Assembly (NCBI RefSeq): GCF_007991735.1
Contig: NZ_BJYX01000023.1
Location: forward strand, 1-52,070
Length of the DNA stretch: 52,070 nucleotides
From: Terrabacter aerolatus
GTDB lineage: Bacteria; Actinomycetota; Actinomycetes; Actinomycetales; Dermatophilaceae
Reading direction: 5' to 3'
The stretch's first letter is position 1, and the number at the start of each line of letters is the position of its first letter. The position numbers were made by a program, and so were the translations under genes. Below, piece after piece: positions 249-50,855 of the stretch. The notes below the pieces were generated by a model. It was not told where the DNA came from, did not search any database, and saw only the letters and a list, made by a program, of their open reading frames with translations.

Positions 249-644
249 TCACCCGAGGGTGATCCTGATGGCAGCGCGTGGGGCGCGCGGGCGCACCCGG
301 TCGGTGACGGCGGCGACCGCATCACCGAGGCGGGCCAGGACGTACTTGCGCCCGAGGGCGCGCTTGACCGCGGCCACGCCCTCCGCGCTCCGGTCGACGA
401 CGGCCGTGCCGGCATACGTCGGCGCTCCCTCGGCCACCCGGCCACGCAGGTCGCACGGCCGCAGCTCGACCCGCGCCGTGTGGGCGAGCCGCTTGAGCTT
501 GCCGGCGGGGTCGACGCTGACGACGACGAGGTCGGAGCCGTCGCGCGCGATCCACACCGGGGTCGGCACGGGCGCCCCGTTGCGGCGGAAGGTCGTCAGC
601 GACACGTAGCGCTGGGCGTTGACGACGTCGAGGTCGCTCGGCAT
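249..644 (-). CDS. PPOX-class F420-dependent oxidoreductase-like protein
   Basis: 131 aa, single small split-barrel domain. The motif TFRRNGAPVPTPVWIARDG followed by GKLKRLAHTARVELRPCD is the characteristic start of actinobacterial PPOX-class (pyridoxamine-phosphate-oxidase fold) enzymes that use F420 or flavin; the substrate cannot be told from sequence. The ATG at 644 opens the conserved domain immediately; a TACGCT -10-like box lies about 15 nt upstream. It is divergent from the 2H phosphoesterase gene at 694, sharing a 49-bp promoter region. A clear paralogue lies at 19223-19624 with the same GKLKRL and RPCD/QPCD blocks. Confidence 0.8.
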   Translation of the reverse strand: MPSDLDVVNAQRYVSLTTFRRNGAPVPTPVWIARDGSDLVVVSVDPAGKLKRLAHTARVELRPCDLRGRVAEGAPTYAGTAVVDRSAEGVAAVKRALGRKYVLARLGDAVAAVTDRVRPRAPRAAIRITLG

Positions 645-682
645 GGGGCTCACGGGCCCAGCGTAGGCCGCGCTCCCGTGTC

Positions 683-688
683 CACAAT
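683..688 (+). promoter_or_regulatory. candidate -10 box (CACAAT) of a leaderless promoter
   Basis: CACAAT ends 5 nt before the ATG at 694, the spacing expected when transcription starts at or next to the start codon. No Shine-Dalgarno sequence is visible for this gene. Confidence 0.35.
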
Positions 689-693
689 GGGCC

Positions 694-1230
694 ATGGCGC
701 TCGCGCTCTGCCTCCTGCTCGACCCGGCGTCCGACCGGCTCGTCCGCGCGCTGTGGCGCCGGCTCGAGGAGCAGGGCGTCCCGACCCTGCTCACGCACAC
801 CCACGGGCGGCACGTCCCGCACGTGTCGTATGCCGTCCTGCTGGCCGCCGAGCGCCAGGCGGTGCTGTCCGCGGCCGCCGGGTTGGGCGACGAGCTGGAC
901 GACGAGGGGCCGCTCGGGATGGCCGTCCAGGGCGTCGTGGTCTTCCCGCGTGGTCGCGCGGCGCTGGCCGGCTCGACGACGGCCGCCCTCGCCACCCGCC
1001 AGGCGCGAGCGGTCGAGGCGCTGCGGGCGACGGGCGCCGTGATCCACCGGCACTACGAGCCGGGCCATTGGATGCCCCACGTGTCGCTGACGACCGGCGT
1101 GGCCGGCGCGCGCCTGCCGTCCGTCGTCGAGGCGGTGTCGGACCGGCTGCCCCTCACCCTGCGGTGCGACCGGGCGGCGATCATCGACACGACCGACGGT
1201 ACGACGTGGGAGCTCACCTGCGTGCCGTGA
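694..1230 (+). CDS. 2'-5' RNA ligase / 2H phosphoesterase superfamily protein
   Basis: 178 aa. Two copies of the H-x-[ST] signature, VPHVSY near residue 45 and MPHVSL near residue 129, in a protein of the usual 2H phosphoesterase size. In the family the paired histidines act on 2'-5' or cyclic phosphodiester bonds in RNA or nucleotides. The physiological substrate of the many bacterial single-domain members is unknown. It is monocistronic and divergent from the PPOX gene. A 300-bp non-coding stretch follows. Confidence 0.7.
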   Translation: MALALCLLLDPASDRLVRALWRRLEEQGVPTLLTHTHGRHVPHVSYAVLLAAERQAVLSAAAGLGDELDDEGPLGMAVQGVVVFPRGRAALAGSTTAALATRQARAVEALRATGAVIHRHYEPGHWMPHVSLTTGVAGARLPSVVEAVSDRLPLTLRCDRAAIIDTTDGTTWELTCVP

Positions 1231-1261
1231 GGTCGGCTCCGTCGCAACGGCGCCCGGTGGT

Positions 1262-1300
1262 CCGGAATGGTCACCCGGAATGGTCACCCGAAATGGTCAC
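1262..1300 (+). repeat. three tandem 13-bp repeats in an intergenic region
   Basis: Units CCGGAATGGTCAC (1262-1274), CCGGAATGGTCAC (1275-1287) and CCGAAATGGTCAC (1288-1300) follow each other without gaps in the 300-bp gap between 1230 and 1539. A related TGGTCCG/TGACCAG stretch follows. Iterated binding sites for a regulator of the downstream gene are possible; no protein can be named. Confidence 0.8.
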
Positions 1301-1454
1301 CTCTGGTCCGTTATGACCAGATCTGTCCATTTCGAACCATCACCGCCGCGTCGGCGTGTCACTCTGTCGCAGTCGCCCCCGGACGGGACACTCGTTGGCA
1401 GGGGACAAGAACTTCCGACGGTTGGCCCGTTGTGGTACGTGAACCGTCACTGGT

Positions 1455-2605: not shown

Positions 2606-3304
2606 ATGAAACGCGCCTTCGCCGTCGCGGCCGTCCTCGCCGCGCCACTCGTCCTCGGAGTGCTGGCCACGGGATCCGCCGGCGCGGCCCAGCCCCGGAT
2701 CTACCACACCATCGGCGCCACGTCGGCGTCCGCCGTCGTCGCGACGACGCAGGGCTGTGAGCTGACCGAGGTCTTCCTCTCGTCGAGCACGGCGATGTAT
2801 GCCGGACAGCCCGGTCCCGTGGGCAAGCAGGGGCTCACCGCGGTGTTCGTCCGCGTCACCGACTCCTGTGCGGCTTCCGGTGCACGGGTCGCCCCAGCCG
2901 CAGGTGGTGGTGGCGGACCGGTCGTCTTCCAGGCGGACGTGCAGAACGGCGCCCCGCTCGTCGTCGACCCGCGCCTGACCCGGGCCTCGGTCACCACCGA
3001 CCTCACCGGCACCGATGGCGACGGCAACCCGGTCACGGTGCACCTCACCGCGTCGTGGACCGGCTCCGGGCCTCTGGAGCACACCACCGACTCGACCCAC
3101 GTCCACTTCGCCGACGGCAACGTCAGCTCCACCGCCAACGACCTGCGCCGTGCCGCCTCGGCCCAGGTCGCGGTCGAGGTCGCCGGCCGGTCGGCCACGG
3201 GCACCGACCCCTCCGCGGTGCTCGAGCAGGCGCGGTCGCACTGCATCGAGGTCCCCCGTCCCGGCGTCGAGGGCTTCTTCCCCTGCTTCGGCTTCCCCGC
3301 CTGA
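2606..3304 (+). CDS. secreted protein of unknown function
   Basis: 232 aa. The ATG at 2606 gives a textbook Sec signal peptide: MKRAF, a hydrophobic stretch to about residue 22, then SAGA-AQ as a likely cleavage site. GGGAG lies just upstream as ribosome binding site. The mature part is rich in Thr, Ser, Val and Gly, has a GGGG turn near its middle and four to five Cys residues, suggesting a disulphide-stabilised beta fold. I do not recognise a family. The next gene is on the opposite strand, 76 bp away, with one GTATGCCG-type octamer in the gap. Confidence 0.6.
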   Translation: MKRAFAVAAVLAAPLVLGVLATGSAGAAQPRIYHTIGATSASAVVATTQGCELTEVFLSSSTAMYAGQPGPVGKQGLTAVFVRVTDSCAASGARVAPAAGGGGGPVVFQADVQNGAPLVVDPRLTRASVTTDLTGTDGDGNPVTVHLTASWTGSGPLEHTTDSTHVHFADGNVSSTANDLRRAASAQVAVEVAGRSATGTDPSAVLEQARSHCIEVPRPGVEGFFPCFGFPA

Positions 3305-3380
3305 CGGCGCGAGATCTGCCGGGCGCGAGCAGCGCGCGGGCGGGGACGGCATACGAGCCCCCCGCCCGCGTGCACGGCGC

Positions 3381-4809: not shown

Positions 4810-6246
4810 ATGAGCACCCCCACGACGACGAGCACGACGAACCCCGGCAGCCCGGCCACCGCTCCCGCCCATCGCACCCGCGTCGTCGTCCTCGGCGCCG
4901 CGGGACGCGACTTCCACGACTTCAACGTCGTCTTCCGTGACGACCCGGCCTACGAGGTCGTCGCCTTCACGGCGACGCAGATCCCCGACATCGACGGGCG
5001 CCGCTACCCACCCGATCTCTCGGGATCGCTGTACCCACAAGGCATTCCGATCGTCGCCGAGAGCGAGCTGGCTGCCCTGCTCGAGCGGGAGCACGTCGAC
5101 GTCGTCGTCTTCGCCTACTCCGACGTGCGGCACGAGCAGGTCATGCACCTCGCCTCGACGTGCATCGCCGCCGGCGCCGACTTCCGGCTGCACAGCGCAC
5201 GCCACACGATGCTGCGCAGCACCCGGCCCGTCGTCGCCGTCACCGCCGTGCGCACGGGCGTCGGCAAGAGCCAGACCACCCGCTACCTCGCCCGGATGCT
5301 CGTCGACCTCGGGCTGCGCGTCGTCGCGGTCCGTCACCCCATGCCCTACGGCGACCTCGCCGCCCAGGCGTGCCAGCGCTTCGCGACGTATGCCGACCTC
5401 GACCGCCACGAGTGCACCATCGAGGAGCGCGAGGAGTACGAGCCCCACCTCGACGCGGGCGTCGTCGTCTACGCCGGCGTCGACTACGAGCGGATCCTCC
5501 GCGAGGCCGAGCAGGAGGCCGACGTCATCCTCTGGGACGGCGGCAACAACGACCTGCCGTTCTACGTCCCCGACCTGCACGTCGTCCTCGCCGACCCGCT
5601 GCGCCCTGGCGACGAGACGGCATACCACCCCGGCGAGGCGAACGTCCGGATGGCTGACGTCGTCGTCATCGCCAAGTGCGACTCGGCGCGGACCGCGGAC
5701 GTCGAGGCCGTCGAGCGGTCCGTCCGTGCCGTCAACCAGCGCGCCATGATCCTGCGCGCCGACAGCCCGGTCACCGTGGACGACCCGGCCGCGGTCGCCG
5801 GCCGCCGCGTCATCGTCGTCGAGGACGGCCCGACCCTCACCCACGGGTCGATGACCTACGGCGCCGGCGTCGTCGGGGCGCGCGCGGCCGGTGCCGCGCA
5901 GCTGCTCGACCCGACGACGTATGCCGTGGGGTCGATCGCCGCGACCTACGCGAAGTATCCGAATGCCCGAGGTGTCCTGCCCGCCATGGGCTACGGCGCC
6001 GAGCAGGTCCACGACCTCGAGGCCACGATCCGCGCCGCCGTCGAGGCGGGGGAGTGCGAGGACGTCGTCAGCGGCACCCCCATCGACCTGACCCGCGTCC
6101 TGTCGGTGCCCGCGCCGATCGTGCGGGCCCGCTACGAGCTGCGCGAGGTGGTGCCGGGCGGTCTCGCGGCCGCGCTGCGCTCCGCGCTCGCGCTCGAGAC
6201 CACCGGCGCCGACGCCGACGCCACGTATGCAGGGAGCAGCTCATGA
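4810..6246 (+). CDS. cyclic 2,3-diphosphoglycerate synthetase-like P-loop NTPase
   Basis: 478 aa from the ATG at 4810 (GGAGA upstream). Residues ~23-135 form a Rossmann-like domain starting RVVVLGAAGRDFHDFN; residues ~142-330 a P-loop domain with the Walker A motif TGVGKSQTTR (K153) and a Walker-B-like DVILWDGGNNDLPF. This two-part arrangement matches the family of archaeal cyclic 2,3-diphosphoglycerate synthetase (CpgS), which closes 2,3-DPG to its cyclic form with ATP. In bacteria homologues are usually labelled GTPase and their reaction is not established. ATGA overlap with the membrane-protein gene at 6243 implies one transcript; the divergent neighbour is rocD. Confidence 0.7.
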   Translation: MSTPTTTSTTNPGSPATAPAHRTRVVVLGAAGRDFHDFNVVFRDDPAYEVVAFTATQIPDIDGRRYPPDLSGSLYPQGIPIVAESELAALLEREHVDVVVFAYSDVRHEQVMHLASTCIAAGADFRLHSARHTMLRSTRPVVAVTAVRTGVGKSQTTRYLARMLVDLGLRVVAVRHPMPYGDLAAQACQRFATYADLDRHECTIEEREEYEPHLDAGVVVYAGVDYERILREAEQEADVILWDGGNNDLPFYVPDLHVVLADPLRPGDETAYHPGEANVRMADVVVIAKCDSARTADVEAVERSVRAVNQRAMILRADSPVTVDDPAAVAGRRVIVVEDGPTLTHGSMTYGAGVVGARAAGAAQLLDPTTYAVGSIAATYAKYPNARGVLPAMGYGAEQVHDLEATIRAAVEAGECEDVVSGTPIDLTRVLSVPAPIVRARYELREVVPGGLAAALRSALALETTGADADATYAGSSS

Positions 6247-6733: not shown

Positions 6734-8398
6734 ATGACCACCACCGGCGTTCCCTCGTCCGACCTCGACACCACCGGCAGGTCCCATCCGGCCGGCCGCC
6801 ACCTCGTGGCCCTCGTCATCGGCTGCCTGCTGATCCTCCCCGGGGTGGGCCTGCTCCTCGGCGGAGCCGGACTCGCGATCACGTATGCCGTCGCGCGTGA
6901 CGGCGCCGGCTACCTCATCCTGACGATGCCCGTCCTGTCGAGCTCGTCCCCGGCCCTCACCGCCGAGGACGCCGTCGTCGCCACGAGCTCCGACGTGCCG
7001 AGCTGGGTGCTCGACCGGCTCGAGTTCGACATCCGGATGACCGCCCGCCCGCTCGCCTCCGGCAAGACCGTGTTCCTCGGCGTCGCCCCCGCGAGCAGCC
7101 TCACGGCATACCTCGGCGGCGTCGCCCACGACCAGGTCGTGGGCATCACCGACCCGCGCACCGGCGGCGAGCGCACGGCGGTGCTGCGGGCGACCCCGGG
7201 TGCCGACCGGGCGCCCGCCCCGACGAGCCAGACCTTCTGGACCGCGGCGGCCACCGGCCCGGGGCAGCAGCAGCTGACGTGGCGCGTCTCCGGCGGCCAG
7301 TGGGGCGCGGTCATCATGAACGCCGATGGGAGCAGCGGGATCGCCGTCGCGTCGTCGATCGGCGTCCGCGCCGGCTTCCTCCTGCCGCTCGCGTTCCTCA
7401 TGCTCGGAGTCGGGATCGTCGTGGCCGGCGCAGCCGTGGCGCTCATCATCATCGGCGCCAGCGGCACCCGGCGCCCGGCCGGTGGCCCCGGAGCGGGCTC
7501 GGCGACCGGCACCGGCGGGACTCCGGTCGTGGCCGTCCCGCCCGACCGGGTCGTGGGGGACGCCCCCGTCGCCGCGGCACCGAGCCTCTGGCACCCGCAC
7601 CCGCGGGCCGTCAGTCCGGTCGCCCTCGACGCGCGCCTCGACGAGCCGCTCTCGCGGTGGCTCTGGCTCGTCAAGTGGTTCCTCGCGATCCCGCACTTCG
7701 TCGTGCTGGGCTTCCTGTGGCTCGCGTTCTCGGTCGTCAGCCTCGTCGCGTTCTTCGCGATCCTCTTCACGGGGCGCTACCCGCGCGGGCTCTTCGACTT
7801 CAACGTCGGTGTCCTGCAGTGGTCGTGGCGCGTGTCGTACTACTGCAGCAGCGGCGGCCTCGGCACCGACCGCTACCCACCGTTCAGCCTCGGGCCGGAG
7901 CCGGACTACCCGGCGCGGCTCGACGTCGCCTACCCGCAGCGGCTCTCGCGCGGCCTCGTCCTCGTCAAGTGGTGGCTGCTCGCGATCCCGCACTACCTCA
8001 TCGTCGGGCTGCTCGTCGGGGGTGGCACGTGGGCGTGGAACCGCACGAGCCAGGGGAATCCGCGCCTCGACGTCATGGGCGGCGGCATCCTCGGCCTGCT
8101 CGTCCTCGTCGCGGGGCTCTCCCTCCTCTTCGCGGGCCACTACCCGCGGGCGCTCTTCGACCTCGTCATCGGGCTCAACCGCTGGGTCTACCGCGTCATC
8201 GCGTATGCCGCGTTGATGACGGACGTCTACCCGCCGTTCCAGCTCGACGAGGGTGGGTCCGAGGTGCTGCCCGGGCCCCCGCCGCCCCCGCCACCGGTCC
8301 CGGCGGACCGTGTCGAGCCCGTGGCGCAGCGTCCCGAACAGCCTGTCGGGCAGCCTGGCGAGCGCTCGGGCGAACAGCCCCGTCAGCTCAGCGGTTGA
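6734..8398 (+). CDS. DUF4389-domain multi-pass membrane protein
   Basis: 554 aa. N-terminal transmembrane segment (~residues 22-48), an extracytoplasmic-looking Ser/Thr-rich domain of about 150 residues, a second membrane segment (~215-245), a Pro/Gly linker, then the C-terminal membrane region. That region holds two similar halves: LSRWLWLVKWFLAIPHF with YPRGLFDFNVGVLQWSWRV, and LSRGLVLVKWWLLAIPHY with YPRALFDLVIGLNRWVYRV, each ending near YPPF. These are the hallmarks of DUF4389. A proline run and Gln/Pro-rich tail end the protein. Its job is unknown; the operon context links it to the CpgS-like NTPase. Confidence 0.75.
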   Translation: MTTTGVPSSDLDTTGRSHPAGRHLVALVIGCLLILPGVGLLLGGAGLAITYAVARDGAGYLILTMPVLSSSSPALTAEDAVVATSSDVPSWVLDRLEFDIRMTARPLASGKTVFLGVAPASSLTAYLGGVAHDQVVGITDPRTGGERTAVLRATPGADRAPAPTSQTFWTAAATGPGQQQLTWRVSGGQWGAVIMNADGSSGIAVASSIGVRAGFLLPLAFLMLGVGIVVAGAAVALIIIGASGTRRPAGGPGAGSATGTGGTPVVAVPPDRVVGDAPVAAAPSLWHPHPRAVSPVALDARLDEPLSRWLWLVKWFLAIPHFVVLGFLWLAFSVVSLVAFFAILFTGRYPRGLFDFNVGVLQWSWRVSYYCSSGGLGTDRYPPFSLGPEPDYPARLDVAYPQRLSRGLVLVKWWLLAIPHYLIVGLLVGGGTWAWNRTSQGNPRLDVMGGGILGLLVLVAGLSLLFAGHYPRALFDLVIGLNRWVYRVIAYAALMTDVYPPFQLDEGGSEVLPGPPPPPPPVPADRVEPVAQRPEQPVGQPGERSGEQPRQLSG

Positions 8399-8825: not shown

Positions 8826-9755
8826 TCAGGCTGGGGCAGCGACGAGGTGGGCGTCGAGCCAGTTGACGATCTCGACCTCGACCTCGTCGCGGTTGGTCTC
8901 GTTGAGGATCTCGTGGCGGGCCTCCGGCCACAGCGTCATCGTCACGTCGCGGACGCCGAGCCGGCGCAGCTGGTCGGCGACCTGGCGCACGCCCTTGCCG
9001 TTCGCGCCGACCGGGTCCTTGTCGCCCGAGGCGAGGTGGACCGGCAGGTCCTTGGGCACCCGGGCGGCCACCGCGTCGGTGTTGACGGACTCGAGGCCAC
9101 GGAGCAGGTCGGCGAATCCGCCTGCGCTGAAGACGAATCCGCAGTCGGGGTCGTTGACGTACTTGTCCACCTCGGCGGTGTCGCGCGAGAGCCAGTCGAA
9201 GTCGGTGCGGGTCGGCTTGAAGGCCTTGTTGTACTGCGCGAAGCTCAGCGTGTTCATGAGCCCGCTCGCGTGGGCGTGACCCCGCAGGCGCGCCTGAGTC
9301 GAGGCCAGGAAGATGCCGACCCGGCCGATCGCGCCCGAGCCCCCCGCGGTGCCGGTCAGCACGAGGCCCGCGAGCTCGGAACCGTACTGCGCGGCATACC
9401 CCCGCGAGAGGAACGAGCCCATGCTGTGACCGAGGAGGTAGACGGGCACTCCCGGCTGCTCCTCGCGCGCCCGGGCGGTCACGGCGTGCAGGTCGTCGAT
9501 GACGGTCTGCCACCCGTCGCGCTCGGCGAAGAGGCCGCGGGCGCTGGAGGTCTTGCCGTGCCCACGGTGGTCCGAGCCGTACACGGCATACCCGTGGTCG
9601 GTGAGGCGCTGGGCGAAGCGGGCGTAGCGGCTCGAGTGCTCGGCGAGCCCGTGCGCGATCTGCACGACCGCCTTGGGGGCGTCGTCGGGCAACCAGCGGT
9701 TGACGAAGACCTCGGTGCCGTCGGGCGTGGTCAGCGTGAAGGTGCTGCTCTGCAT
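8826..9755 (-). CDS. monoacylglycerol lipase-like alpha/beta hydrolase
   Basis: 309 aa from the ATG at 9755. Serine aminopeptidase S33/Hydrolase_4 type fold: QIAHGLAEHSSRYARFAQRL and YAVYGSDHRGHGKT are characteristic of monoacylglycerol lipases; nucleophile elbow GHSMGS with Ser about 111; Asp in SGDKDPVG; His in EARHEILNE. Likely hydrolyses monoglycerides or lysophospholipids; a phospholipase/carboxylesterase role is the alternative. No signal peptide, so cytoplasmic. A GTATGCCG octamer lies 10 bp upstream of the start and the triple hairpin array follows the stop. Confidence 0.8.
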   Translation of the reverse strand: MQSSTFTLTTPDGTEVFVNRWLPDDAPKAVVQIAHGLAEHSSRYARFAQRLTDHGYAVYGSDHRGHGKTSSARGLFAERDGWQTVIDDLHAVTARAREEQPGVPVYLLGHSMGSFLSRGYAAQYGSELAGLVLTGTAGGSGAIGRVGIFLASTQARLRGHAHASGLMNTLSFAQYNKAFKPTRTDFDWLSRDTAEVDKYVNDPDCGFVFSAGGFADLLRGLESVNTDAVAARVPKDLPVHLASGDKDPVGANGKGVRQVADQLRRLGVRDVTMTLWPEARHEILNETNRDEVEVEIVNWLDAHLVAAPA

Positions 9756-9947
9756 GGCCGAACTGTATGCCGCGACGGCGCTGCGCTGACCCGAACCGCC
9801 CGAGGTGCCCGGTGACCGTTTCGGTGGGCTTCTGCCCGACCCCACAAATACGGGTGCCCGAATCTATTTACATGAGACCGAACGGGTGGTTTCCTAGGTG
9901 AAGCGGCCCGATGGGGGACCGACAGTCAACGAGGACGAGGGAGTCCG
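9756..9947. promoter_or_regulatory. control region between lipase and fructose PTS operon
   Basis: 192 bp without a gene, including an unusually A/T-rich stretch (9841-9898). TTTACA at 9867-9872 and a TAGGTG at 9895-9900 could be promoter elements, but their spacing (22 nt) is too long to call. ACCG/CGGT-type inverted motifs recur (ACCGTTTCGGT near 9823 and ACCGAACGGGTGGT near 9877); they are candidate operators for the DeoR-type repressor encoded next door. CCCACAAATAC at 9841 falls in the same low-GC patch. Confidence 0.35.
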
Positions 9948-10709: not shown

Positions 10710-11668
10710 TCGTGACCCTGACCCCCAACCCGAGCATCGACCGGGCCGTCCTCATCGACGCGCTCCGGCGGGGCGAGGTGCACCGGGCCAGCAGCAGCCG
10801 GATCGACCCGGGCGGCAAGGGCGTCAACGTCTCCCGGGCCCTCGCGGCCCAGGGCGGCTCGACCGTCGCGGTGCTGCCGAGCGGAGGCCCCGAGGGGCAC
10901 CTGCTCGAGGAGCTCCTCGACGCGGCCGGCGTCGCCTACGCGTCCGTCCCGGTCCGCGGTTCGGTGCGGATGAACATCAGCGTCCTCGAGCCCGACGGCA
11001 CGACGACCAAGCTCAACGAGCCCGGTCCGGACCTGTCCGCCGACGAGGTCGAGGCGCTGCTCGCCACGACGCTCGAGCGCGCCGCCGGCGCCGGCGCGGC
11101 GCGCGGCGCCGAGTGGGTCGTCGGGTGCGGGAGCCTGCCGCCCGGCGCCCCCACCGAGCTGTATGCCGTCCTCGTCAGCCGGGTGCGCGAGCGCGGTGGG
11201 CGCGTCGCCATCGACTCCTCCGGCGCGCCCTTCGCGGCCGCCGTCGCCGCGAAGCCGCACCTCATCAAGCCCAACCACGAGGAGCTCGCCGAGCTCGTCG
11301 ACCACGAGCTGCCCACCCTGGGCGACGTGCGCGACGCGGCCCGCGAGCTCGTGAGGTCCGGCATCGACGTCGTGGCCGTCAGCCTCGGCGGCGACGGTGC
11401 CCTGCTCGTGACGGCCGACGAGTGCGCGCACGCACGGGCCACCATCACGGCCCCCCAGTCCACCGTGGGCGCCGGCGACTGCATGCTCGCCGGCCTGCTC
11501 CACGGCCTGTCCACCGGCCTCGACCCGGCGGACGCCCTCATGACGGGGGTGACGTGGGGCGCCGCGGCGGTCACCCTCCCCGGAAGCCGCGTGCCCACAC
11601 CCGACGACCTCGACGGCATACGCGCTGTGCTGAGCCGCGAGCCCGACCTCGACCGCGTCCTCTCGTGA
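10706..11668 (+). CDS. fruK: 1-phosphofructokinase
   Basis: 320 aa PfkB-family kinase that phosphorylates fructose-1-phosphate to fructose-1,6-bisphosphate. Opening IVTLTPNPSIDRAV is typical of FruK/LacC/PfkB; the substrate motif DPGGKGVNVSRAL and the C-terminal PfkB signature STVGAGDCMLAGLL, with the catalytic Asp in GAGD, are intact. Start overlaps the fruR stop (ATGA); fruA begins 49 nt downstream. The neighbouring fructose EII fixes the substrate as fructose-1-phosphate. Confidence 0.93.
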   Translation: MIVTLTPNPSIDRAVLIDALRRGEVHRASSSRIDPGGKGVNVSRALAAQGGSTVAVLPSGGPEGHLLEELLDAAGVAYASVPVRGSVRMNISVLEPDGTTTKLNEPGPDLSADEVEALLATTLERAAGAGAARGAEWVVGCGSLPPGAPTELYAVLVSRVRERGGRVAIDSSGAPFAAAVAAKPHLIKPNHEELAELVDHELPTLGDVRDAARELVRSGIDVVAVSLGGDGALLVTADECAHARATITAPQSTVGAGDCMLAGLLHGLSTGLDPADALMTGVTWGAAAVTLPGSRVPTPDDLDGIRAVLSREPDLDRVLS

Positions 11669-16831: not shown

Positions 16832-16901
16832 GACACGCCCTCCGGGCGCCGAGGTATGCCGTCGCGCCCGGGCGCGAGGCCACACCTCGACCCGCGAGGG
16901 C

Positions 16902-33366: not shown

Positions 33367-34077
33367 TCAGGCGACGGGCAGCCGCTCCCGGAGGAACTCG
33401 ACGGTCGTCGCCCAGGCGAGCGTCGAGGAGGCGGGGTCGTGCCACGGCATGTCGTCGTTGTCGAAGGCGTGGTCCGCGCCGGCATACGTCTCGAAGACGG
33501 TCTCGGGCTGCTCGGTCACCGACGCCTCGATCCGGCGCACCGTCTCGGTGTCGATGAAGGAGTCGGCGAGGCCGAAGTGGTGCAGGCTCGGCGCCGTCAC
33601 CGTCAGGGTCTCGTGCAGGCCGGGCAGCGCCGAGCCGTAGTAGCTGACGAGGGCGTCGAGCGGGGCGCTCTCGCCGGACTCGAGGTGCGCGGCGACGGCG
33701 TAGCCGAGCCCCCCGCCGAAGCAGAAGCCGACCGCGCCGACCCCGGCGGTGACCTCGTCGCGGGCGCGGAGCCACTCGACCGTCGCGGCCGCGTCGGTGA
33801 CCGCCGCGTCCCAGTCGAGACGTTGGACGAGCCCCATGCCCTGCTGGAGCGCGTCGTCGCCCTCGACCGGGGAGGTGACCCCGAGGCGCCAGAAGATCTC
33901 CGGCGCCACGACGACGTAGCCGATCTCGGCGAGCTGCGCGGCGCGGCGCTGGATGTAGTCGCTGACGCCGAAGATCTCCTGCAGCACGACGATCCCGGGC
34001 CCGTGTCCGGTCGGCGGGAGCCAGAGGTGCGCGGGCAGGTCGCCGGCGTCGGTCGTGACGGTCACGTGTTCGGTCAT
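33367..34077 (-). CDS. dienelactone hydrolase family protein
   Basis: 236 aa. IVVLQEIFGVSDYIQRRAAQ with catalytic-pocket Glu, nucleophile Cys119 in VGFCFGGGLGYA, and His in YAGADHAFDN are the DLH triad motifs. Hydrolyses cyclic ester or related bonds; the usual chlorocatechol pathway genes are absent, so substrate is open. The ATG is preceded by CATACT at 6 nt. Confidence 0.88.
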   Translation of the reverse strand: MTEHVTVTTDAGDLPAHLWLPPTGHGPGIVVLQEIFGVSDYIQRRAAQLAEIGYVVVAPEIFWRLGVTSPVEGDDALQQGMGLVQRLDWDAAVTDAAATVEWLRARDEVTAGVGAVGFCFGGGLGYAVAAHLESGESAPLDALVSYYGSALPGLHETLTVTAPSLHHFGLADSFIDTETVRRIEASVTEQPETVFETYAGADHAFDNDDMPWHDPASSTLAWATTVEFLRERLPVA

Positions 34078-35475: not shown

Positions 35476-35510
35476 CCGTATGCCGCCGAGGGAGGGTCGG
35501 CGGCATACGG
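35476..35510 (-). terminator. terminator hairpin built from two inverted GTATGCCG octamers
   Basis: CCGTATGCCGCCGA (35476-35489) pairs perfectly with TCGGCGGCATACGG (35497-35510), a 14-bp stem with a 7-nt loop, 18 bp after the stop of the minus-strand gene ending at 35529. No long T-run follows, which is normal in high-GC actinobacteria. Each arm contains one copy of the window-wide octamer. Confidence 0.7.
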
Positions 35511-37014: not shown

Positions 37015-38046
37015 CTACCGGCCGCGGGCGGTCGACCACACCCAGTCGAGGACCGAGCGGTGCCGCGACCACGACGGGTCGCCCGTGGACGGGGCCTGCG
37101 GGTCGCCGTCGACCGCCGCGCCGTCCGGGGCCCCGTCACCGGCGCGCGTCGTGGCGAGCGAGCGCGACACCGCGTCGGCCACCCCCACCCGGCCTCCGGG
37201 AGGTTCGCCGAGGACGTCGGCCGCGTCCCGCTCGCCGACCATGTCGTGACCGAGGCTCGGGATGAGCGACTGCACCGTGCCGCTCGGGACGTCGACGAGG
37301 ACCCCGGCCACGCGCGCGACCGTCTCGACGGGCGCCAGCCACACGGGCAGCTGGACCCGGACCAGCCGGGCGCGGGCGGCATACGTGCGCAGCAGGGAGA
37401 CGTAGCTGAGACGGTCGGGCCCGACGACGTCGAGGTGACCGGTCACCTCGGGTCGCTCGAGCGCCTCGGCGAGGAACCACACGGCGTCCGCGACGGCGAC
37501 CGGCTGGATCACCGAGCCGCCCATCCAGGCCGGGACGGTCTGCACGACGCCGAGCCGGGTGGACATCTGCCGCATCACCTCGAAGCTCGTCGACCCCGCC
37601 CCGACGACCATCGAGGCCCGCAGGGTCAGCACCGAGCAGTCCGCGGTCGCGAGGATCTCCTCGACCTCGAGCCGGGACAGCAGGTGGTCCGACAGCTCGT
37701 CGTCGGGCAGGTCGGGCACGATCCCCGAGAAGTAGACGAGGCGCGACGCGCCGACGACGCCCGCGGCATACGCGACGTTGTCGGCCGCCTGGCGGTCGAG
37801 CCGCATGAAGTCGGGGTCGTCCAGCCCGTGCACGAGGTAGCAGATCGCGTCGACGCCGTGCAGCGCCTCGACGACGCGCTCCTCGTCCTGCACGTCGACG
37901 CGCCGCCACTCGACGTCACCAGACCAGGGGTATGCCGTCGACGGGCTCCGGTGGTGCGTGGCCACGACGTCGTGGCCGCGTCGGAGCAGCTCGGGCACGA
38001 GCCGGGACCCGACGTAGCCGCTCGCGCCGACGACGGCGACCCTCAT
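37015..38046 (-). CDS. NAD(P)-binding atypical SDR (NmrA/epimerase-like)
   Basis: 343 aa. Rossmann start VAVVGASGYVGSRLVPELLR, VDVQDEERVVEALHGVDAIC, YFSGIVP and a DAVWFLAEAL region; no classical YxxxK, so an atypical SDR. Three octamer copies lie within the gene. Its ATG overlaps the stop of the CoxG-like gene upstream (ATGA at 38043-38046), so the two are an operon. Confidence 0.75.
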   Translation of the reverse strand: MRVAVVGASGYVGSRLVPELLRRGHDVVATHHRSPSTAYPWSGDVEWRRVDVQDEERVVEALHGVDAICYLVHGLDDPDFMRLDRQAADNVAYAAGVVGASRLVYFSGIVPDLPDDELSDHLLSRLEVEEILATADCSVLTLRASMVVGAGSTSFEVMRQMSTRLGVVQTVPAWMGGSVIQPVAVADAVWFLAEALERPEVTGHLDVVGPDRLSYVSLLRTYAARARLVRVQLPVWLAPVETVARVAGVLVDVPSGTVQSLIPSLGHDMVGERDAADVLGEPPGGRVGVADAVSRSLATTRAGDGAPDGAAVDGDPQAPSTGDPSWSRHRSVLDWVWSTARGR

Positions 38047-39911: not shown

Positions 39912-40112
39912 GGCGTCAGCCTGCCAGCCGGCATACGCCTGCGTCACCGAGGTTTGCGTCCGGGACGGCGTCGGGAGGGAGCCGGAGACGAGGCCGGAGA
40001 CGAGGTTGGACCGGGAGCCAGCAAGCCGGCTCCCGGTCCAATGGCCCGCTTCCCCTCCACAGGCTGCGTACCGAGGCCTACCGTACCCAATGGACCGTCA
40101 GGACGAACGCGC

Positions 40113-42046: not shown

Positions 42047-42847
42047 GTGCAGACGGACGAGGTGCTGAGCCTCCTGAAGGACGTGGCCGAGCAGGTCATC
42101 AACCCCCGGTTCCGGGCGCTCGCCGACGGCGAGATCCACGAGAAGCGGCCCGGTGACCTCGTCACCGACGCCGACCGGGAGGCCGAGGTGCTCATCACCG
42201 CGGCGCTCAACGAGGCCTACCCCGACGCCGTCGTGCTCGGGGAGGAGACGTTCGCCGGCGACCCGGCGCTCATGGACCGCTACGCCGCAGCCGAGCACGC
42301 CTTCACCGTCGACCCCGTCGACGGCACGAAGAACTTCGTGCACGGCTCCAAGGACCACGCCGTCATGGTGAGCGAGACCGTCGCCGGTGAGGCGGTGCGC
42401 GCCTGGATCTGGCAGCCGCAGCACGAGGTCGGCTACGTCGCGGAACACGGCTCCGGCACGTGGCGCCACGACGCCGACGGCACGCAGCGCCTGACGGTCC
42501 CCGAGCGCGGCGACGCGCAGCTGCGGGGCCGCACGTCGCGGCGCGCGTGGATCGGGCAGTCGCTCGCCGGTCTCGAGCCGATGACCCTGACCTGGGTGTC
42601 GTGCGGCATCGACTACCCCAAGCTCGTCGAGGGCGAGGCCGACTACATCCTCTACGCGGGCGCCGCCCCCTGGGACCACGTGCCGGGCTCGCTCCTGCTC
42701 GCCGAGGCCGGCGGCCGCCTCGGCACGACCGAGGGCGTCACGTACTCCCCGCGCGACATCGCGCCCCCCGGCCTCGTCGCCGCCGGCAGCCCCACGGCAT
42801 ACGACCACGTATGCCGTGCGCTCGCCTCGAGCGCCCACCTGCCCTGA
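42047..42847 (+). CDS. inositol monophosphatase-family phosphatase
   Basis: 266 aa. Metal-binding motifs LVTDADREAE, GEET (E66/E67), DPVDGTKNF (D89/D92) and the C-terminal GAAPWDHVPGSLLLAEAGG are intact, so an active Mg-dependent phosphatase is expected. Substrate could be inositol phosphate, histidinol phosphate, fructose-1,6-bisphosphate or PAP; no neighbour decides. The last codons contain an inverted octamer pair (42795-42818). Confidence 0.9.
   Translation: MQTDEVLSLLKDVAEQVINPRFRALADGEIHEKRPGDLVTDADREAEVLITAALNEAYPDAVVLGEETFAGDPALMDRYAAAEHAFTVDPVDGTKNFVHGSKDHAVMVSETVAGEAVRAWIWQPQHEVGYVAEHGSGTWRHDADGTQRLTVPERGDAQLRGRTSRRAWIGQSLAGLEPMTLTWVSCGIDYPKLVEGEADYILYAGAAPWDHVPGSLLLAEAGGRLGTTEGVTYSPRDIAPPGLVAAGSPTAYDHVCRALASSAHLP
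42795..42818. other. hairpin of two inverted octamers inside a gene end
   Basis: ACGGCATACG (42795-42804) and CGTATGCCGT (42809-42818) form a perfect 10-bp stem with a 4-nt loop in the final codons (TAYDHVCRAL) of the phosphatase gene. The right arm is read as GTA-TGC-CGT, unusual codons here. It sits 30 bp before the stop, where a terminator or pausing structure would act. Confidence 0.65.
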
Positions 42848-46290: not shown

Positions 46291-46302
46291 CCCGCCGACG
46301 TC

Positions 46303-46336: not shown

Positions 46337-46348
46337 CCCCGGACCGGC

Positions 46349-47131
46349 TCAGCCGAGCACGATCCCGAAGTGCTCGACCAGGGCGGCCAGCACGGCGTCC
46401 TCGTCGGGCAGCGCGGACTCGTGCCGTCGTCCGTGCGTCGTCGTGATGAGCCGCTCGCCGCTCAGGGTGACCCGCCCGGTGGGCGTGAGGCGGGAGGCCA
46501 CCCGGGAGCGCGTGAAGTGGCTGTCGGGCGAGGTCTGCTGCCACACGTTGCGCTCCTCGAAGTCCGACAGCGGGTGCGGTGCGGGGTCGAAGACGTACTG
46601 CGTGCGCCACTCGCTCCCGGGCCGGCGCTCGCGGTAGTGCCAGTCGCCGTCCGCGCGCACGAGACCGACGTCCTTGCCCGGCTCGGCGCGCCGCTCGCCG
46701 TCGCGCAGGACGAGCGGCTCGATGAACGCGTCGCCGAAACCGACGTCGGCGAGCACCGGGACGTCGAGGCCCCCTCCGGTCACGATGAGCGCGAGGTGGT
46801 CGAAGTCGTCGGTGAGCCCGCCGTCAGCCGTCGCGACGCGCGCGGAGACGAGGTCCACGGCATACCCCAGGCTGCGCAGCAGCAGCGCGAAGAGGCCGTT
46901 CAGCTCGTAGCAGTAGCCGCCCCGGCGCGCGCCGACCACCTTGTCGAGCAAGGCATCCCGGTCGAGATGGATCGGTCGGCCGAGCGGGATGTCGAGGTTC
47001 TCGAAGGGCACGGCCAGCAGGTGTGCCCGGTGCAGCGAGGCGAGGGCGGCTGCGGTCGGTGCCTCGGGCGCGGCAGCGCCGACCCGGGCGAGGTAGTCGG
47101 CCGTCTCGTCGGCCGTGAGTGGTGCGGTCAC
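46349..47131 (-). CDS. nat: arylamine N-acetyltransferase
   Basis: 260 aa, normal size. Catalytic triad visible: Cys74 in ARRGGYCYELNGLF, His112 in DDFDHLALIV, Asp129 in LADVGFGDAF; VPFENLDIPLGRPI precedes it. Transfers acetyl from acetyl-CoA to arylamines, arylhydrazines or similar. GTG 47131 is used; a GTG at 47158 would add nine residues. Confidence 0.92.
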   Translation of the reverse strand: MTAPLTADETADYLARVGAAAPEAPTAAALASLHRAHLLAVPFENLDIPLGRPIHLDRDALLDKVVGARRGGYCYELNGLFALLLRSLGYAVDLVSARVATADGGLTDDFDHLALIVTGGGLDVPVLADVGFGDAFIEPLVLRDGERRAEPGKDVGLVRADGDWHYRERRPGSEWRTQYVFDPAPHPLSDFEERNVWQQTSPDSHFTRSRVASRLTPTGRVTLSGERLITTTHGRRHESALPDEDAVLAALVEHFGIVLG

Positions 47132-47164
47132 CGGACCATGCTCGGACCTCGAGCCCACTGGAGG

Positions 47165-48193
47165 TCAAGCGGGCGCGGGGAGGGGGAGGGCGACGCCGAC
47201 CATCGTCACGCCGCGCCCGTCGCTCTCGTATGCCGTGCGCTCGAGCAGGTGCCCGGCCGCGGCCCGCAGGGCGGCCGGGTCGAGACCGGGGGTCTCGAGC
47301 GGTCCGCGCTCGAGCACCTGGGCGCCGTCGTCGTAGCGCACGAGGACCTCGAGCCGGCTCGGGAGGCGAGGCGGGTCGTCGAGCCCGAGCACGCGGGTCA
47401 CGGCCCGCTCGACGCAGTCGTCGAGCACCGCGACGACCTTGGACCGGGTGCGGGTGGCGGCGAAGGACCGGCTCGCGCTCACCGAACGGCGCGGCCCCGG
47501 CAGGCGCACCGTCGCATCGTCGGTGCCGCGCGCGATGGACACGAGACGCCGGGCCATCGCCGTCGTGACGATGCGCTTGAGGTCGTCCTCGTCGAGGCCG
47601 TGGAGGTCCGAGACGACGAAGAGGCCTGCGGCGTGGAGCTTCTCGTACGTCGTGGGCCCGATGCCCCAGAGCTCGTCGAGGCGCAGGCGGGGGCGCACGC
47701 GCTCCTCGAGCCCCGCGTCGACGACGACGATCCCGTCGGGCTTGGCGCGGCGGCTCGCCAGCTTGGCCATGAGCTTGGTGCGTCCGACGCCGACGGAGAC
47801 CGGGAGACCGACCTCGTCACGGGCCGCCGCGCGCAGGGCGACGGCGAGGCCGTGCGGGTCGCCCCGGTCGCGACCGGTCACGTCGAGGAAGGCCTCCTCC
47901 ATCGAGCCGGGCTCCACGAGGGGCGTGAAACGGCGGAAGATCTCGAACAGCCGCACCGACGCCTCCTCGTGGACCTCCGGGCGGTAGCCGGTCACGAGCA
48001 CGTCGGGCCAGCGGCGCCGGACCTGGCGCAGCGGCATACCGGCGTGGATGCCGAGAGCCCGTGCCTCGTAGGACGGGCAGGCGACGACCTCGTGGGCCAC
48101 GACGATCGCCCGCCCGCGCAACGACGGGTCGTCGCGCTGCTCGACCGAGGCGAGGAACGCGTCGGCGTCGGCGTGCAGGAGGACCACGGCCAC
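47165..48193 (-). CDS. dinB: Y-family DNA polymerase (DinB/Pol IV-like)
   Basis: 342 aa. HADADAFLASVEQRDDPSLR (catalytic Asp near residue 9), CPSYEARALGIHAGMPL, SVGVGRTKLMAKLASRRAKP, DELWGIGPTTYEKLHAAGL and a little-finger domain are all Y-family. The second catalytic block reads EPGSMEEAFLDVTG, with Glu at the position that is Asp in the usual S-x-D-E motif. No QLSLF-type clamp-binding tail at the C-terminus. Translesion synthesis is the expected role; the active-site change may alter activity. GTG start. Confidence 0.88.
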   Translation of the reverse strand: MAVVLLHADADAFLASVEQRDDPSLRGRAIVVAHEVVACPSYEARALGIHAGMPLRQVRRRWPDVLVTGYRPEVHEEASVRLFEIFRRFTPLVEPGSMEEAFLDVTGRDRGDPHGLAVALRAAARDEVGLPVSVGVGRTKLMAKLASRRAKPDGIVVVDAGLEERVRPRLRLDELWGIGPTTYEKLHAAGLFVVSDLHGLDEDDLKRIVTTAMARRLVSIARGTDDATVRLPGPRRSVSASRSFAATRTRSKVVAVLDDCVERAVTRVLGLDDPPRLPSRLEVLVRYDDGAQVLERGPLETPGLDPAALRAAAGHLLERTAYESDGRGVTMVGVALPLPAPA

Positions 48194-48240
48194 AGTCTCC
48201 GCCCGCCCACCGACAGCCTCACGGAGGAAGCAGTGGCGAC

Positions 48241-49242: not shown

Positions 49243-49249
49243 GCCTTCG

Positions 49250-49255
49250 ACGATA
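49250..49255 (-). promoter_or_regulatory. candidate -10 box (TATCGT, minus strand) of a leaderless promoter
   Basis: On the minus strand TATCGT is followed by 7 nt and the GTG of the patatin gene. Confidence 0.4.
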
Positions 49256-49274
49256 GCCCGCGCGCGGGGCGTCC

Positions 49275-50192
49275 TCAGGCGGGCAGGTAGTAGATCTCCA
49301 TCGCCGTGAGGCGCGCACGATCGGCCACCATCTCGATCCCGGTGACGTGGTCACCCTCGACCGTGAAGCGGAAGGCCACCTGGGGCTCCCCGTGGAGCGT
49401 CCACACCGCGCCCACGCCGCCGTCGAAGGCCGCGAGCCGCGCGGACCTCGCGCCGCCGTTGAAGCGCCGGGCCACCGCGTCGGGTCCGCGCAGCGCCTCG
49501 GGGGCGCCCATCGCGACGGCGGCGGCGTCGGCCGTCAGCACGACGTCGGGGTCGAGCATCTCGAGCAGCGCCGCGAAGTCACCGCCGCGGGCGGCGGCGA
49601 GGAAGGCGCCCACGACCTCGCGCTGCCTCGTGCGGGCCGGGCTGGACTCGGTGGCGTCGGCGGACCGCACCCGTCGTCGGGCGCGGCTCGCGAGCTGGCG
49701 CGTGGCCGCGGGTGAGCGGTCGAGGATGTCGGCGATCTGCTCGAAGGGCATGCCGAAGAGGTCGTGGAGCACGAAGGCGAGACGCTCGGCGGGGGCCAGC
49801 GTGTCGAGCACGACGAGCAGGGCGAGGCCGATGCTGTCGGCGAGCTCGGCCTCGCTCGCGGGGTCCGGGGGCTGCTGCATCTGCGAGGCCGGGGCGACAC
49901 GGGCGTCACCGGTCCCTACGAGATCGGCGAGGCCGGCGTCCCAGCTGTCCTCGCGCCGGGACCCGCGCGACCGCAGCATGTCGAGGCTGATCCGGCCGAC
50001 GACGGTCGTCAGCCAGCCGGCGAGGTTGGCGACCTCGGTCGTGTCGCTCCGGCTCAGTCGCAGCCACGCCTCCTGCACGGCGTCGTCCGCGTCGGCCGCC
50101 GACCCGAGCACCCGGTAGGCCACGGCGCGCAGCCGCGGTCGCTGCTGCTCGAAGTCCCGCGCCAGCCAGTCGTCTCGGGAGTCGTCGTCCAT
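49275..50192 (-). CDS. SigJ/ECF41-type RNA polymerase sigma factor with SnoaL-like domain
   Basis: 305 aa. Sigma region 2 (RLRAVAYRVLGSAADADDAV, QEAWLRL, LAGWLTTVVGRISLDMLRSR) and region 4 (LAPAERLAFVLHDLFGMPFE, QIADILDRSPAATRQLASRA) are followed by a SnoaL-like C-terminal domain (residues ~190-305: VVGAFLAAARGGDFAALLEM, LTADAAAVAMGAPEALRGPD), the ECF41/SigJ layout in which the C-terminal domain tunes activity. The protein stops at MEIYYLPA, without the NPDKL-type ending seen in many relatives. ATG 50192; GTG 50201 possible. Divergent from the VOC gene. Confidence 0.88.
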   Translation of the reverse strand: MDDDSRDDWLARDFEQQRPRLRAVAYRVLGSAADADDAVQEAWLRLSRSDTTEVANLAGWLTTVVGRISLDMLRSRGSRREDSWDAGLADLVGTGDARVAPASQMQQPPDPASEAELADSIGLALLVVLDTLAPAERLAFVLHDLFGMPFEQIADILDRSPAATRQLASRARRRVRSADATESSPARTRQREVVGAFLAAARGGDFAALLEMLDPDVVLTADAAAVAMGAPEALRGPDAVARRFNGGARSARLAAFDGGVGAVWTLHGEPQVAFRFTVEGDHVTGIEMVADRARLTAMEIYYLPA

Positions 50193-50310
50193 CGTCGTCA
50201 CATCCTCGGGTCGTGATCCGTCATAGCACTGACGAGCCGGTGCCACCGGATGTGACACCGGATGTGACACCGCACGACGCACCCACACCACACCATGCAA
50301 GGAGAGACCG

Positions 50311-50649
50311 ATGTCCGCCGTGAACACCCTGATCTACCCCGTCGCCGACCTCGACGCAGCCAAGAAGGTCTTCGGGATCCTGCTCGGCGCGCAGCCGCAC
50401 ACCGACGAGTCCTACTACGTCGGCTACAACGTCGACGGACAGGAGATCGCGCTCGACCCGAACGGGCACCGCAGGGGCCTGACCGGCGGCACGCCCTACT
50501 GGTCGGTCGCGGACCTCGGGGCGTCGCTCGCCGCCCTCGTCGCGGCCGGTGCGACGGTCTGCCAGTCGGCCACCGAGGTCGGCGGAGGGCGCACCGTCGC
50601 CGTCCTCGCGGACGCCGACGGCAACATGATCGGCCTCATGCAGGGCTGA
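50311..50649 (+). CDS. VOC-family (glyoxalase-like) protein
   Basis: 112 aa. One vicinal-oxygen-chelate unit: NTLIYPVADLDAAKKVFGIL, SYYVGYNVDGQEIALDPNG, and DADGNMIGLMQG. AAGGAG before the ATG. Proteins of this type often sit beside ECF41 sigma genes as putative targets, and this one is divergent from such a gene. Enzymatic activity unproven. Confidence 0.85.
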   Translation: MSAVNTLIYPVADLDAAKKVFGILLGAQPHTDESYYVGYNVDGQEIALDPNGHRRGLTGGTPYWSVADLGASLAALVAAGATVCQSATEVGGGRTVAVLADADGNMIGLMQG

Positions 50650-50855
50650 GCTGCCGAGGCCGGACCGGGCCCACCGAGGGCGTATGCCGGCCGCCGGGCG
50701 AGGTGCCCGCCTGACCTCGCCCGGTCGGTCGCGTCCGCGCCACCACCCAAGCCGAATCCGCCTGTGCTGCAACCGATCAGCCGACCCGATGGGAGGCCGG
50801 AGATGTGCGTCGGAGTCGCGTGACGGCATACGCCAGGGGGTGTGCGAAAGGGGCT
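50650..50855. other. non-coding stretch downstream of the VOC gene
   Basis: 206 bp with no credible ORF; contains two octamer copies (50682 and 50824) in opposite orientation, 135 bp apart, too far for a simple hairpin. Together with 50856-51056 it makes a 407-bp gap before the lacI-type gene. Confidence 0.5.

Follow-up and report, generated by a model that had tools for sequence, protein, structure and literature searches.

A short non-palindromic word iterated across the genomes of Terrabacter aerolatus and its relatives: a candidate self-DNA uptake signal in actinobacteria

In this work we ask why a single octamer, GTATGCCG, recurs so often in a 52,070-nucleotide stretch of Terrabacter aerolatus DNA (contig NZ_BJYX01000023.1; hereafter the window), and what kind of signal it may represent. 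An earlier note on this DNA had counted 41 copies, 21 on the plus and 20 on the minus strand, far above chance. The count was confirmed: exact matches run from 410..417 to 50824..50831, while 100 dinucleotide shuffles of the window gave a mean of 0.64 and a maximum of 3 copies. Markov models of order 1, 2 and 3 expected 0.62, 1.03 and 2.33 copies, respectively; orders 4–6 expected 13–41, because those orders contain pieces of GTATGCCG itself. Every occurrence of TATGCC and, as had been claimed, of the heptamer GTATGCC lay inside the octamer (41/41 in the window). Single-letter neighbours were present in 0–6 copies, near expectation, with the exception of GGATGCCG (12 copies vs 4.9 expected). 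The G+C content of the window was 73.4% and not about 72% as given earlier.

Copies were assigned to coding or intergenic DNA on the basis of gene calls from a home-made caller. Those in coding sense on the plus strand are located at 828..835, 2797..2804, 5388..5395, 5919..5926, 6883..6890, 8203..8210, 11161..11168, 14472..14479, 20029..20036, 20176..20183, 22656..22663, 27621..27628, 29783..29790 and, in the GTA-TGC phase, 42809..42816; on the minus strand they are located at 410..417 (TAT-GCC phase), 9392..9399, 9584..9591, 33480..33487, 37377..37384, 37764..37771, 39929..39936, 46858..46865 and, in the ATG-CCG phase, 17982..17989, 24861..24868 and 48032..48039. Coding antisense copies occupy the GCA-TAC phase at 5618..5625, 7104..7111, 14192..14199 and 42795..42802 (minus) and 37930..37937 and 47228..47235 (plus), and the GGC-ATA phase at 11614..11621 and 30278..30285 (both minus). 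Eight of the 41 copies are not wholly within a predicted gene, which agrees with the earlier statement that the word is also found between genes: 9765..9772, 16854..16861, 23119..23126 and 50682..50689 on the plus strand and 3347..3354 and 50824..50831 on the minus strand are intergenic or at a gene edge, and the remaining two, at 35478..35485 (plus) and 35501..35508 (minus), are the left and right arms of an intergenic hairpin. This inverted pair (35476..35510, between predicted genes) has a 14-bp stem and a 7-nt loop; the RNA fold of 35470–35520 reached −33.7 kcal/mol (z −5.9), and a simple scan did not flag the hairpin as a T-tailed terminator.

The enrichment is real and far bigger than the window. 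In the 4.42-Mb genome of the same strain (G000) we found 2163 copies, 1072 forward and 1091 reverse, as compared with 195 copies of the reversed control word. The obvious doubt is that a codon, dipeptide or composition preference produces the word. It had been noted earlier that several reading frames are used, and all of them do occur, but two phases dominate: among 183 coding copies of this genome, 114 were in the sense TAT-GCC phase, 40 in the antisense GCA-TAC phase and 29 in others, so that the Tyr-Ala and Ala-Tyr phases hold 84% of them. The abundance of the related word GTACGCCG in a Kribbella record from outside the family (20 copies in 22 kb) points in the same direction, and this particular variant may be partly codon-driven. 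For GTATGCCG, an artefact of this kind has a negligible chance of being correct and is refuted by two controls applied to a 452-kb sample of the genome. A synonymous-codon shuffle that preserves every protein plus codon usage predicted 5.5 coding copies vs 185 observed, and a second-order Markov model expected 1.7 intergenic copies vs 70 observed. Thus, neither the Markov check nor the Tyr-Ala codon-pair check proposed in the earlier note overturned the observation.

Intergenic density of the word in G000 was 1.375 per kb vs 0.458 per kb in coding DNA; in the relative G068 the two were equal (0.877 vs 0.859 per kb). Gaps between convergent genes carried 2.79 copies per kb, tandem gaps 1.45 and divergent gaps 0.74, and 11 of the 13 close pairs in G000 were inverted, some of them able to form hairpins. 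The convergent and tandem excess and the hairpin pairs would suit a word acting purely as a transcription terminator or regulatory element. We consider this very unlikely, since most copies stand alone and 183 of 258 lie within predicted genes. The terminator-only reading is contradicted by this coding majority, and known uptake words likewise include a minority of inverted repeats (PMC1939737).

Copies in G000 are also spaced evenly (collapsed CV 0.776 vs 0.941 simulated, p 0.0016), and the flanks around them are weak. Of 10 genomes, 8 had a variance-to-mean ratio of 10-kb counts below 1, and G068 and G060 had one above 1; only G000 (45) and G068 (40) offered more than 8 bins. Replichore polarity was assessed in G068 only, a one-contig relative, our own genome being a draft; no two-half split gave polarity above chance (largest departure 0.026, p 0.90), in line with the earlier argument from lack of polarity against Chi- and KOPS-type signals. 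As an over-represented and conserved octamer, GTATGCCG does resemble polar signals for recombination or segregation of the Chi, KOPS or AIMS type, but given this result such a role is highly improbable; moreover, adjacent copies in G000 are more often in opposite than in the same orientation, while Chi is polarised on one strand (PMC8022716). A site for a chromosome-organising or DNA-repair protein, with specificity drifting between genera, would be consistent with the even spacing and with the presence of the word in each of 20 stretches sampled along the chromosome of G068, although L068 had just one copy. We find this unlikely as well, since there is no polarity, a Wadjet-bearing island is free of the word (a single island, picked for being low), and loss of the word or its replacement by a variant in sister genera is unexpected for a conserved nucleoid or repair protein. 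Evidence on foreign DNA is thin: besides that island, one phage, taken without its host's own word count, fits depletion of the word, and the two lowest 10-kb bins of G000 contain flagellar-type and housekeeping-type genes rather than mobile ones, as judged by eye.

We counted GTATGCCG in 71 genomes of the family Intrasporangiaceae (Dermatophilaceae in GTDB): 40 were rich, with 939–4724 copies, and the remaining 31 had at most 293. The 46 genomes from other families of the order had at most 167 copies, and in a class-wide sample of 246 genomes only 3, all from this same family, exceeded 386. Each of the 11 genera with at least two genomes was uniformly rich or poor (11/11). From this family we chose 26 samples so as to include genomes both rich and poor in the word. 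In 13 of them GTATGCCG, or a word no more than two letters off, ranked within the first three octamers, as it did in 1 of 7 samples from other families; 8 of the 26 had no convincing over-represented word. Sites are also conserved between congeners: in G005 11/11 were retained vs 46.5% of comparable octamers, and in G003 8 of 10 aligned sites vs 44.5%.

Several family genomes poor in GTATGCCG are instead rich in a variant, GGATGCCG, GTACGCCG, GTATGCGG or CGATGCGG. GGATGCCG reached 3949 copies in G034, 3816 in G024 and 2195 in G052, the last of which carries two words, and G011 tolerates C, A or G at one position. The variants exceed the codon-shuffle expectation and most also exceed the intergenic one; CGATGCGG in G065 reaches no higher density in intergenic DNA (3 in 6 kb). 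Variant levels differ within some genera: CGAWGSGG was found 3302 times in G065 and 1301 times in G016 (genus g9), and GGATGCCG 1336 times in G009 and 614 times in G061 (genus g2). A second large family, probably Microbacteriaceae, is rich in GGATGCCG, with 45 of 120 genomes having at least 300 copies per Mb and five times the control, and up to 4491 copies. This maximum was in G106 and stood against 485 in G247 within the same genus (g79), and DNA of a named Microbacterium contained 46 copies in 50 kb vs 7.9.

Replacement of one word by another recalls HIP1 of cyanobacteria, with which the earlier note had compared the octamer. On this view GTATGCCG could be recognised, and created or maintained, by a methyltransferase coupled to a bias in mismatch repair, and dialects would track methyltransferase exchanges. 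Like HIPs, the word is a highly iterated octamer, is genome-wide, lies in both coding and intergenic DNA and gives way to alternates in some genomes; yet HIPs are palindromic and methyltransferase-linked (PMC4390886), and neither GTATGCCG, which differs from its own reverse complement, nor its dialects are palindromes. Variants one or a few letters apart and the tolerance seen in G011 resemble a drifting receptor more than a swapped methyltransferase, and the excess at gene convergence is left unexplained. We therefore hold this explanation to be improbable.

In our estimation GTATGCCG is quite likely a self-DNA uptake word, comparable in function to DUS of Neisseria and USS of Haemophilus. 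The uptake-like behaviour suggested in the earlier note is supported by the genome count, the codon-shuffle control, the intergenic excess, the hairpin pairs, the even spacing and the dialects, all obtained by sequence analysis. The competence machinery would include a receptor at the cell surface that binds the word on double-stranded DNA, and fragments bearing it would be preferentially imported via ComEA/ComEC and then recombined into the chromosome. Because uptake would favour tagged over untagged alleles, the word would accumulate to about one copy per 2 kb, evenly spread, tolerated where codons permit and commoner between genes. Receptor specificity may drift, with the genome slowly following, which would give rise to the dialects GTATGCCG, GGATGCCG, GTACGCCG, GTATGCGG, GTATGNCG, CGATGCGG and perhaps CGAAGGGG. 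We infer that the word raises uptake, that this is the route of its accumulation and that the receptor exists, as either a Tad component or ComEA.

Of the genes suggested earlier for inspection (comEA, comEC, type IV pilus), our genome has ComEC with an SLBB+HhH ComEA upstream, as well as a Flp/Tad locus in which two Flp/Fap pilins, RcpC/CpaB, a CpaE-like ATPase and a TadA-type ATPase lie side by side. The type IVa pilus protein PilM (PilM_2) is absent from it, and therefore GTATGCCG cannot be filed with the known systems based on type IVa pili; among the 40 rich genomes only G033 has PilM_2. Nearly every genome of either family has ComEC and T2SSE/TadA-type ATPases, word-free genomes included, so the presence of ComEA, ComEC and a filament in our genome does not discriminate. 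Of 20 small second-family genomes with little of the word, 18 still match ComEC. A ComEC match was missing in the rich genomes G037, G041 and G042, which are 58, 81 and 95% complete and in 330–760 contigs. The most likely uptake filament would be the Flp/Tad pilus, on which transformation of Micrococcus luteus also depends; a type IVa pilus is less probable. On balance we lean towards self-DNA recognition having arisen independently in Gram-positive actinobacteria, with dialects in at least two families, read by a Flp/Tad-pilus receptor or ComEA and not by a type IVa minor pilin.

A paper of 2025 describes DNA uptake sequences as known only from Neisseriaceae and Pasteurellaceae. If the proposed reading is true, these two families would be joined by a third case, this one Gram-positive and with many dialects spread over two families, implying that the trait evolves repeatedly. 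Dozens of genera could then be used for mapping the receptor by co-variation, the word would indicate which actinobacteria are probably capable of natural transformation, and it would serve as a practical tag in the transformation of strains resistant to genetic work.

Among known systems, USS of Pasteurellaceae is a longer motif with structured flanks, and its sequence is unrelated to GTATGCCG. For its receptor a type IV minor pilin has been proposed (PMC12616744). Within the same order as Terrabacter, transformation of Micrococcus luteus requires Flp/Tad pili, and its genome has comEA and comEC, which, together with a Flp/Tad locus, our genome likewise possesses; the available portions of PMC6370729 and PMC12849477, which report this, mention no uptake word, and the terms 'uptake sequence' and 'DUS' are absent from PMC12849477 and PMC4322843. 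Another close parallel is DUS of Neisseriaceae, which likewise is short and non-palindromic and occurs in thousands of copies on both strands, with hairpin-forming inverted pairs; N. gonorrhoeae, counted with the same script, had 52 copies of GCCGTCTG in 50 kb, a density similar to that of GTATGCCG. DUS dialects lie a few letters apart across the family and two may share a genome (PMC3630211), as two words do here in G052. GTATGCCG and the neisserial ATGCCGTCTGAA (PMC2346458) have ATGCCG in common, extended to ATGCCGTC once the preferred 3' flank of GTATGCCG is counted, an overlap that we treat as coincidence. The differences are that the core of GTATGCCG, at 8 bp, is shorter than known DUS/USS (10–12 for DUS), and that its hosts are Gram-positive actinobacteria, our genome being devoid of PilM and thus of a ComP-type setting.

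The octamer GTATGCCG (the word) is present in 41 copies in the window, from position 410 to 50831, 21 on the plus and 20 on the minus strand, exactly as the earlier note had counted, and 100 dinucleotide shuffles of the window gave a mean of 0.64 copies and a maximum of 3. All copies of GTATGCC, as previously noticed, and all copies of TATGCC are part of the octamer. Its one-letter neighbours occur 0–6 times in the window, close to expectation, with the exception of GGATGCCG (12 vs 4.9 expected). Eight copies of the word in the window are non-coding. The excess extends to the whole genome (G000; 4,420,518 bases, 62 contigs), where 1072 + 1091 copies (2163) were found vs 195 for the control word, which in all genome counts is the pattern read backwards and gives a rough expectation only.

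For closer analysis we used 452 kb of G000 (the window plus 400 kb), with genes called by a home-made codon-usage script, which called few genes in G010 and none in G022. Of the copies of the word in this sample, 183 are coding and 72 intergenic (0.458 and 1.375 per kb, respectively), and 3 lie at edges; the codon-shuffle run tallied 185 and 70, because of the home-made gene calling. Among the coding copies 131 are sense and 52 antisense, TAT-GCC accounting for 114 and antisense GCA-TAC for 40. When synonymous codons were permuted across genes, with all proteins and codon usage preserved, 5.5 coding copies were expected and 185 observed, while an order-2 Markov model predicted 1.7 intergenic copies vs 70 observed. 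In the one-contig relative G068 the corresponding values were 288 vs 19.0 and 58 vs 1.6, the density being the same in coding (0.859 per kb) and intergenic DNA (0.877 per kb). The enrichment is neither a codon nor a composition effect, and the earlier claims that the octamer does not reflect a dipeptide or codon pair and that it also lies between genes both hold.

The sites are kept between congeners. In the part of the window at 36000-52070, 11 of 11 sites are retained in G005 and 8 of 10 aligned sites in G003 (one site is unaligned), whereas of octamers with three A/T 46.5% and 44.5%, respectively, are identical. In the reverse comparison, 11 of 13 aligned sites of G005 and 8 of 11 of G003 were kept in the window. 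Separately, window 36195-36950 has 78% DNA identity with MT838127.1, described as 'Bacteriophage sp.' from human faeces; the match may be to a bacterial gene, the record being unannotated.

Among 71 genomes of the Intrasporangiaceae (Dermatophilaceae in GTDB), 40, including G000, contain 939-4724 copies of GTATGCCG and 31 at most 293, with a gap between. All nine counted genomes of Terrabacter are rich (1423-2358 copies), and each of the 11 genera with at least two genomes counted is uniformly rich or poor. No genome of other families of the order (46 genomes, 19 families) exceeded 167 copies, and in a class-wide sample of 246 genomes more than 386 copies were found only in G000, G040 and G043, all of this family. 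A MAG with the isolate label TET1, which may or may not be a relative, carries 16 copies in 22 kb.

Within the family the word has dialects. We ranked over-represented octamers in 26 genomes of the family, picked to cover rich and poor ones, using 40-452 kb of each. In 13 of these at least one of the three leading octamers was GTATGCCG or differed from it by no more than two letters, as in one of seven genomes from other families. Dialect samples comprised 40-80 kb per genome (452 kb for G000, 400 kb for G068), expectations coming from the codon shuffle for coding and from the Markov-2 model for intergenic counts. GGATGCCG is enriched in G034 (coding 54 vs 12.5, intergenic 30 vs 1.0), G024 (24 vs 3.7 and 8 vs 0.5) and G009 (37 vs 10.9, with 4 intergenic copies), and GTACGCCG in G031 (46 vs 10.4 and 9 vs 0.7) and G048 (28 vs 6.9, 7 intergenic); in G032 the excess is limited to intergenic copies of CGTACGCC, which overlaps with GTACGCCG (11 vs 0.6). 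GTACGCCG is kept as a weaker dialect, since high-G+C genomes favour the codon pair TAC-GCC and the octamer is also present in a Kribbella record. GTATGCGG appears in G028 (coding 11 vs 1.2, 4 intergenic), and G011, itself rich in GTATGCCG, is enriched in three words that begin with GTATG, end in CG and have C, A or G in between (46, 31 and 29, respectively, vs 4.0, 2.4 and 3.7). Further words are CGATGCGG in G065 (coding 81 vs 19.9, only 3 intergenic) and CGAAGGGG in G045 (33 vs 4.7 and 9 vs 0.4), the kinship of the latter with the other dialect words being uncertain. Samples of G049, G022, G010, G036, G069, G053, G057 and G016 (8 of 26) gave no convincing word, and that of G018 a palindrome only.

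Whole-genome counts agree with the dialect samples: GGATGCCG is found 3949 times in G034, 3816 in G024 and 2195 in G052, which has two words (1217 copies of GTATGCCG in addition), and CGAWGSGG 4316 times in G045, 3239 in G046 and 3302 in G065 (controls 630-942). Both words can differ in abundance within a genus, CGAWGSGG between G065 and G016 (1301 copies, control 574) and GGATGCCG between G009 (1336) and G061 (614).

Several other repeats were observed. In G023 (L117-L120) GTATGCCG lies inside a longer conserved stretch, approximately CGTATGCCGCTGGGCTCGCTC, half of 28 copies being intergenic, and G011 (L113-L116) has a second intergenic repeat around AAGTCGCCGAT, whose octamers have 18-30 copies each within 16 kb of intergenic sequence. 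Two genomes without the word contain possibly HIP-like palindromes: GACGCGTC in G036 (L153-L155; coding 40 vs 9.9, intergenic 12 vs 1.7) and GGACGTCC in G018 (L121-L123; 24 vs 3.2, both strands counted). In the family f10, three genomes of one genus (G079, G097, G113) hold 1966-2399 copies of CGAWGSGG vs 538-695 for controls; type IVa PilM is present in this genus.

In a second family, f19, GGATGCCG reaches 4491 copies in G106 vs 159 for the control, and 45 of 120 genomes have at least 300 per Mb and five times the control (per-Mb figures are based on genome sizes rounded to 0.1 Mb). The 20 f19 genomes of 0.9-1.8 Mb show a median of 70 and a maximum of 258 per Mb, and the remaining families (44 genomes) at most 241. 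GGATGCCG is uneven even within the genus of G106, G247 having 485 copies. Since a Microbacterium record is rich in GGATGCCG (46 copies in 50 kb vs 7.9 expected), and given the size profile of its genomes, f19 is probably Microbacteriaceae. The PLSDB plasmid entries NZ_CP119142.1 (N. gonorrhoeae, 2.17 Mb) and NZ_CP072877.1 (Microbacterium, 465 kb) look chromosomal, the latter containing uvrC, whiA and ribosomal protein genes.

A polar signal of the Chi or KOPS type was rejected: 20 stretches of G068 carry 173 forward and 179 reverse copies, and no half-chromosome split of this genome shows polarity (p 0.90), which bears out, for G068 only, the lack of polarity noticed in the window. Over 360 kb of contig C1 of G000 the copies are spaced more evenly than at random (collapsed CV 0.776 vs 0.941, p 0.0016), and in 8 of 10 genomes the variance of the counts per 10 kb is smaller than their mean, G068 and G060 showing the opposite, with more than 8 bins available only in G000 and G068. 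Intergenic density in G000 decreases from convergent (2.79 per kb) through tandem (1.45) to divergent gaps (0.74). Neighbouring copies less than 60 bp apart are inverted in 11 of 13 pairs; the pair at 35476-35510 folds well (35470-35520, -33.7 kcal/mol, z -5.9), and a simple scan found no T-tailed terminator there. Beyond 300 bp, neighbours in G000 (L041-L060 and the window) are in opposite orientation 145 times vs 74 in the same, which could mean polar uptake starting at the word. The excess is also seen in G023 and G034, and the DUS of N. gonorrhoeae gives 28 vs 17 over all distances, but it is missing in G068 (138 vs 119) and G065 (27 vs 28); not being general, it is not used as main evidence.

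Low density of the word as a mark of foreign DNA gave a mixed picture: it matches one island of G068 but not the two lowest bins of G000. The poorest of the 20 G068 stretches (L068) has 1 copy vs a mean of 17.6, and its word-free part, L068:1626-20000, encodes a DDE (IS630-like) transposase, an OLD/Gabija-like ATPase, Wadjet JetA-D, an SNF2 helicase and a Cad-type transporter. Another G068 stretch has 1 copy in its first 10.9 kb, of lower G+C and with sugar/polysaccharide-like genes by eye. In G000 the two poorest 10-kb bins (1 copy each, unremarkable among 45 bins) contain flagellar-type and housekeeping-type genes by eye. Phage TJE1, whose host Tetrasphaera jenkinsii belongs to the Intrasporangiaceae, carries the word twice in 49 kb, vs 0.6 copies expected.

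G000 encodes ComEC (L060:1623-3797, minus strand; Pfam Competence, TIGR00360 over and TIGR00361 below cut-off) and, adjoining it, a ComEA-type SLBB+HhH protein (L060:4214-4954; Pfam over, TIGR01259 below cut-off). Six kb of contig C29 encode two Flp/Fap pilins, RcpC/CpaB (Pfam over cut-off) and two ATPases, one CpaE-like and one of the TadA type; for the latter the best NCBIfam model was TIGR03819, whose score of 325 bits is under the cut-off of 373. ComEC is present in 111 of 117 genomes, the six misses including the rich, fragmented G037, G041 and G042, and in 118 of 120 f19 genomes; T2SSE ATPases occur in 117 of 117, and all but one of the 120 f19 genomes (119) match TIGR03819, 81 of them over cut-off. 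Being nearly universal, these three were rejected as discriminators; they are permissive. G000 lacks PilM_2 of type IVa pili, which was found in 22 of 117 genomes, a single one of them rich in GTATGCCG, and the type IVa pilus was rejected as the uptake machine.

Among the literature matches listed there was no paper on GTATGCCG as a genomic motif, and none of those listed in open-access PMC literature described an actinobacterial uptake word; our claim of novelty is based on the latter and on one passage of the literature. N. gonorrhoeae, put through the same script, gave 52 copies of GCCGTCTG in 50 kb. We propose that the word works like known uptake-word systems. We do not file it with them, because minor pilins of type IV are the receptors known or proposed there, whereas G000 lacks type IVa PilM and has a Flp/Tad locus. 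In Micrococcus luteus, a member of the same order as T. aerolatus, transformation requires Flp/Tad pili, and comEA and comEC are present, according to passages of two papers (PMC6370729, PMC12849477).
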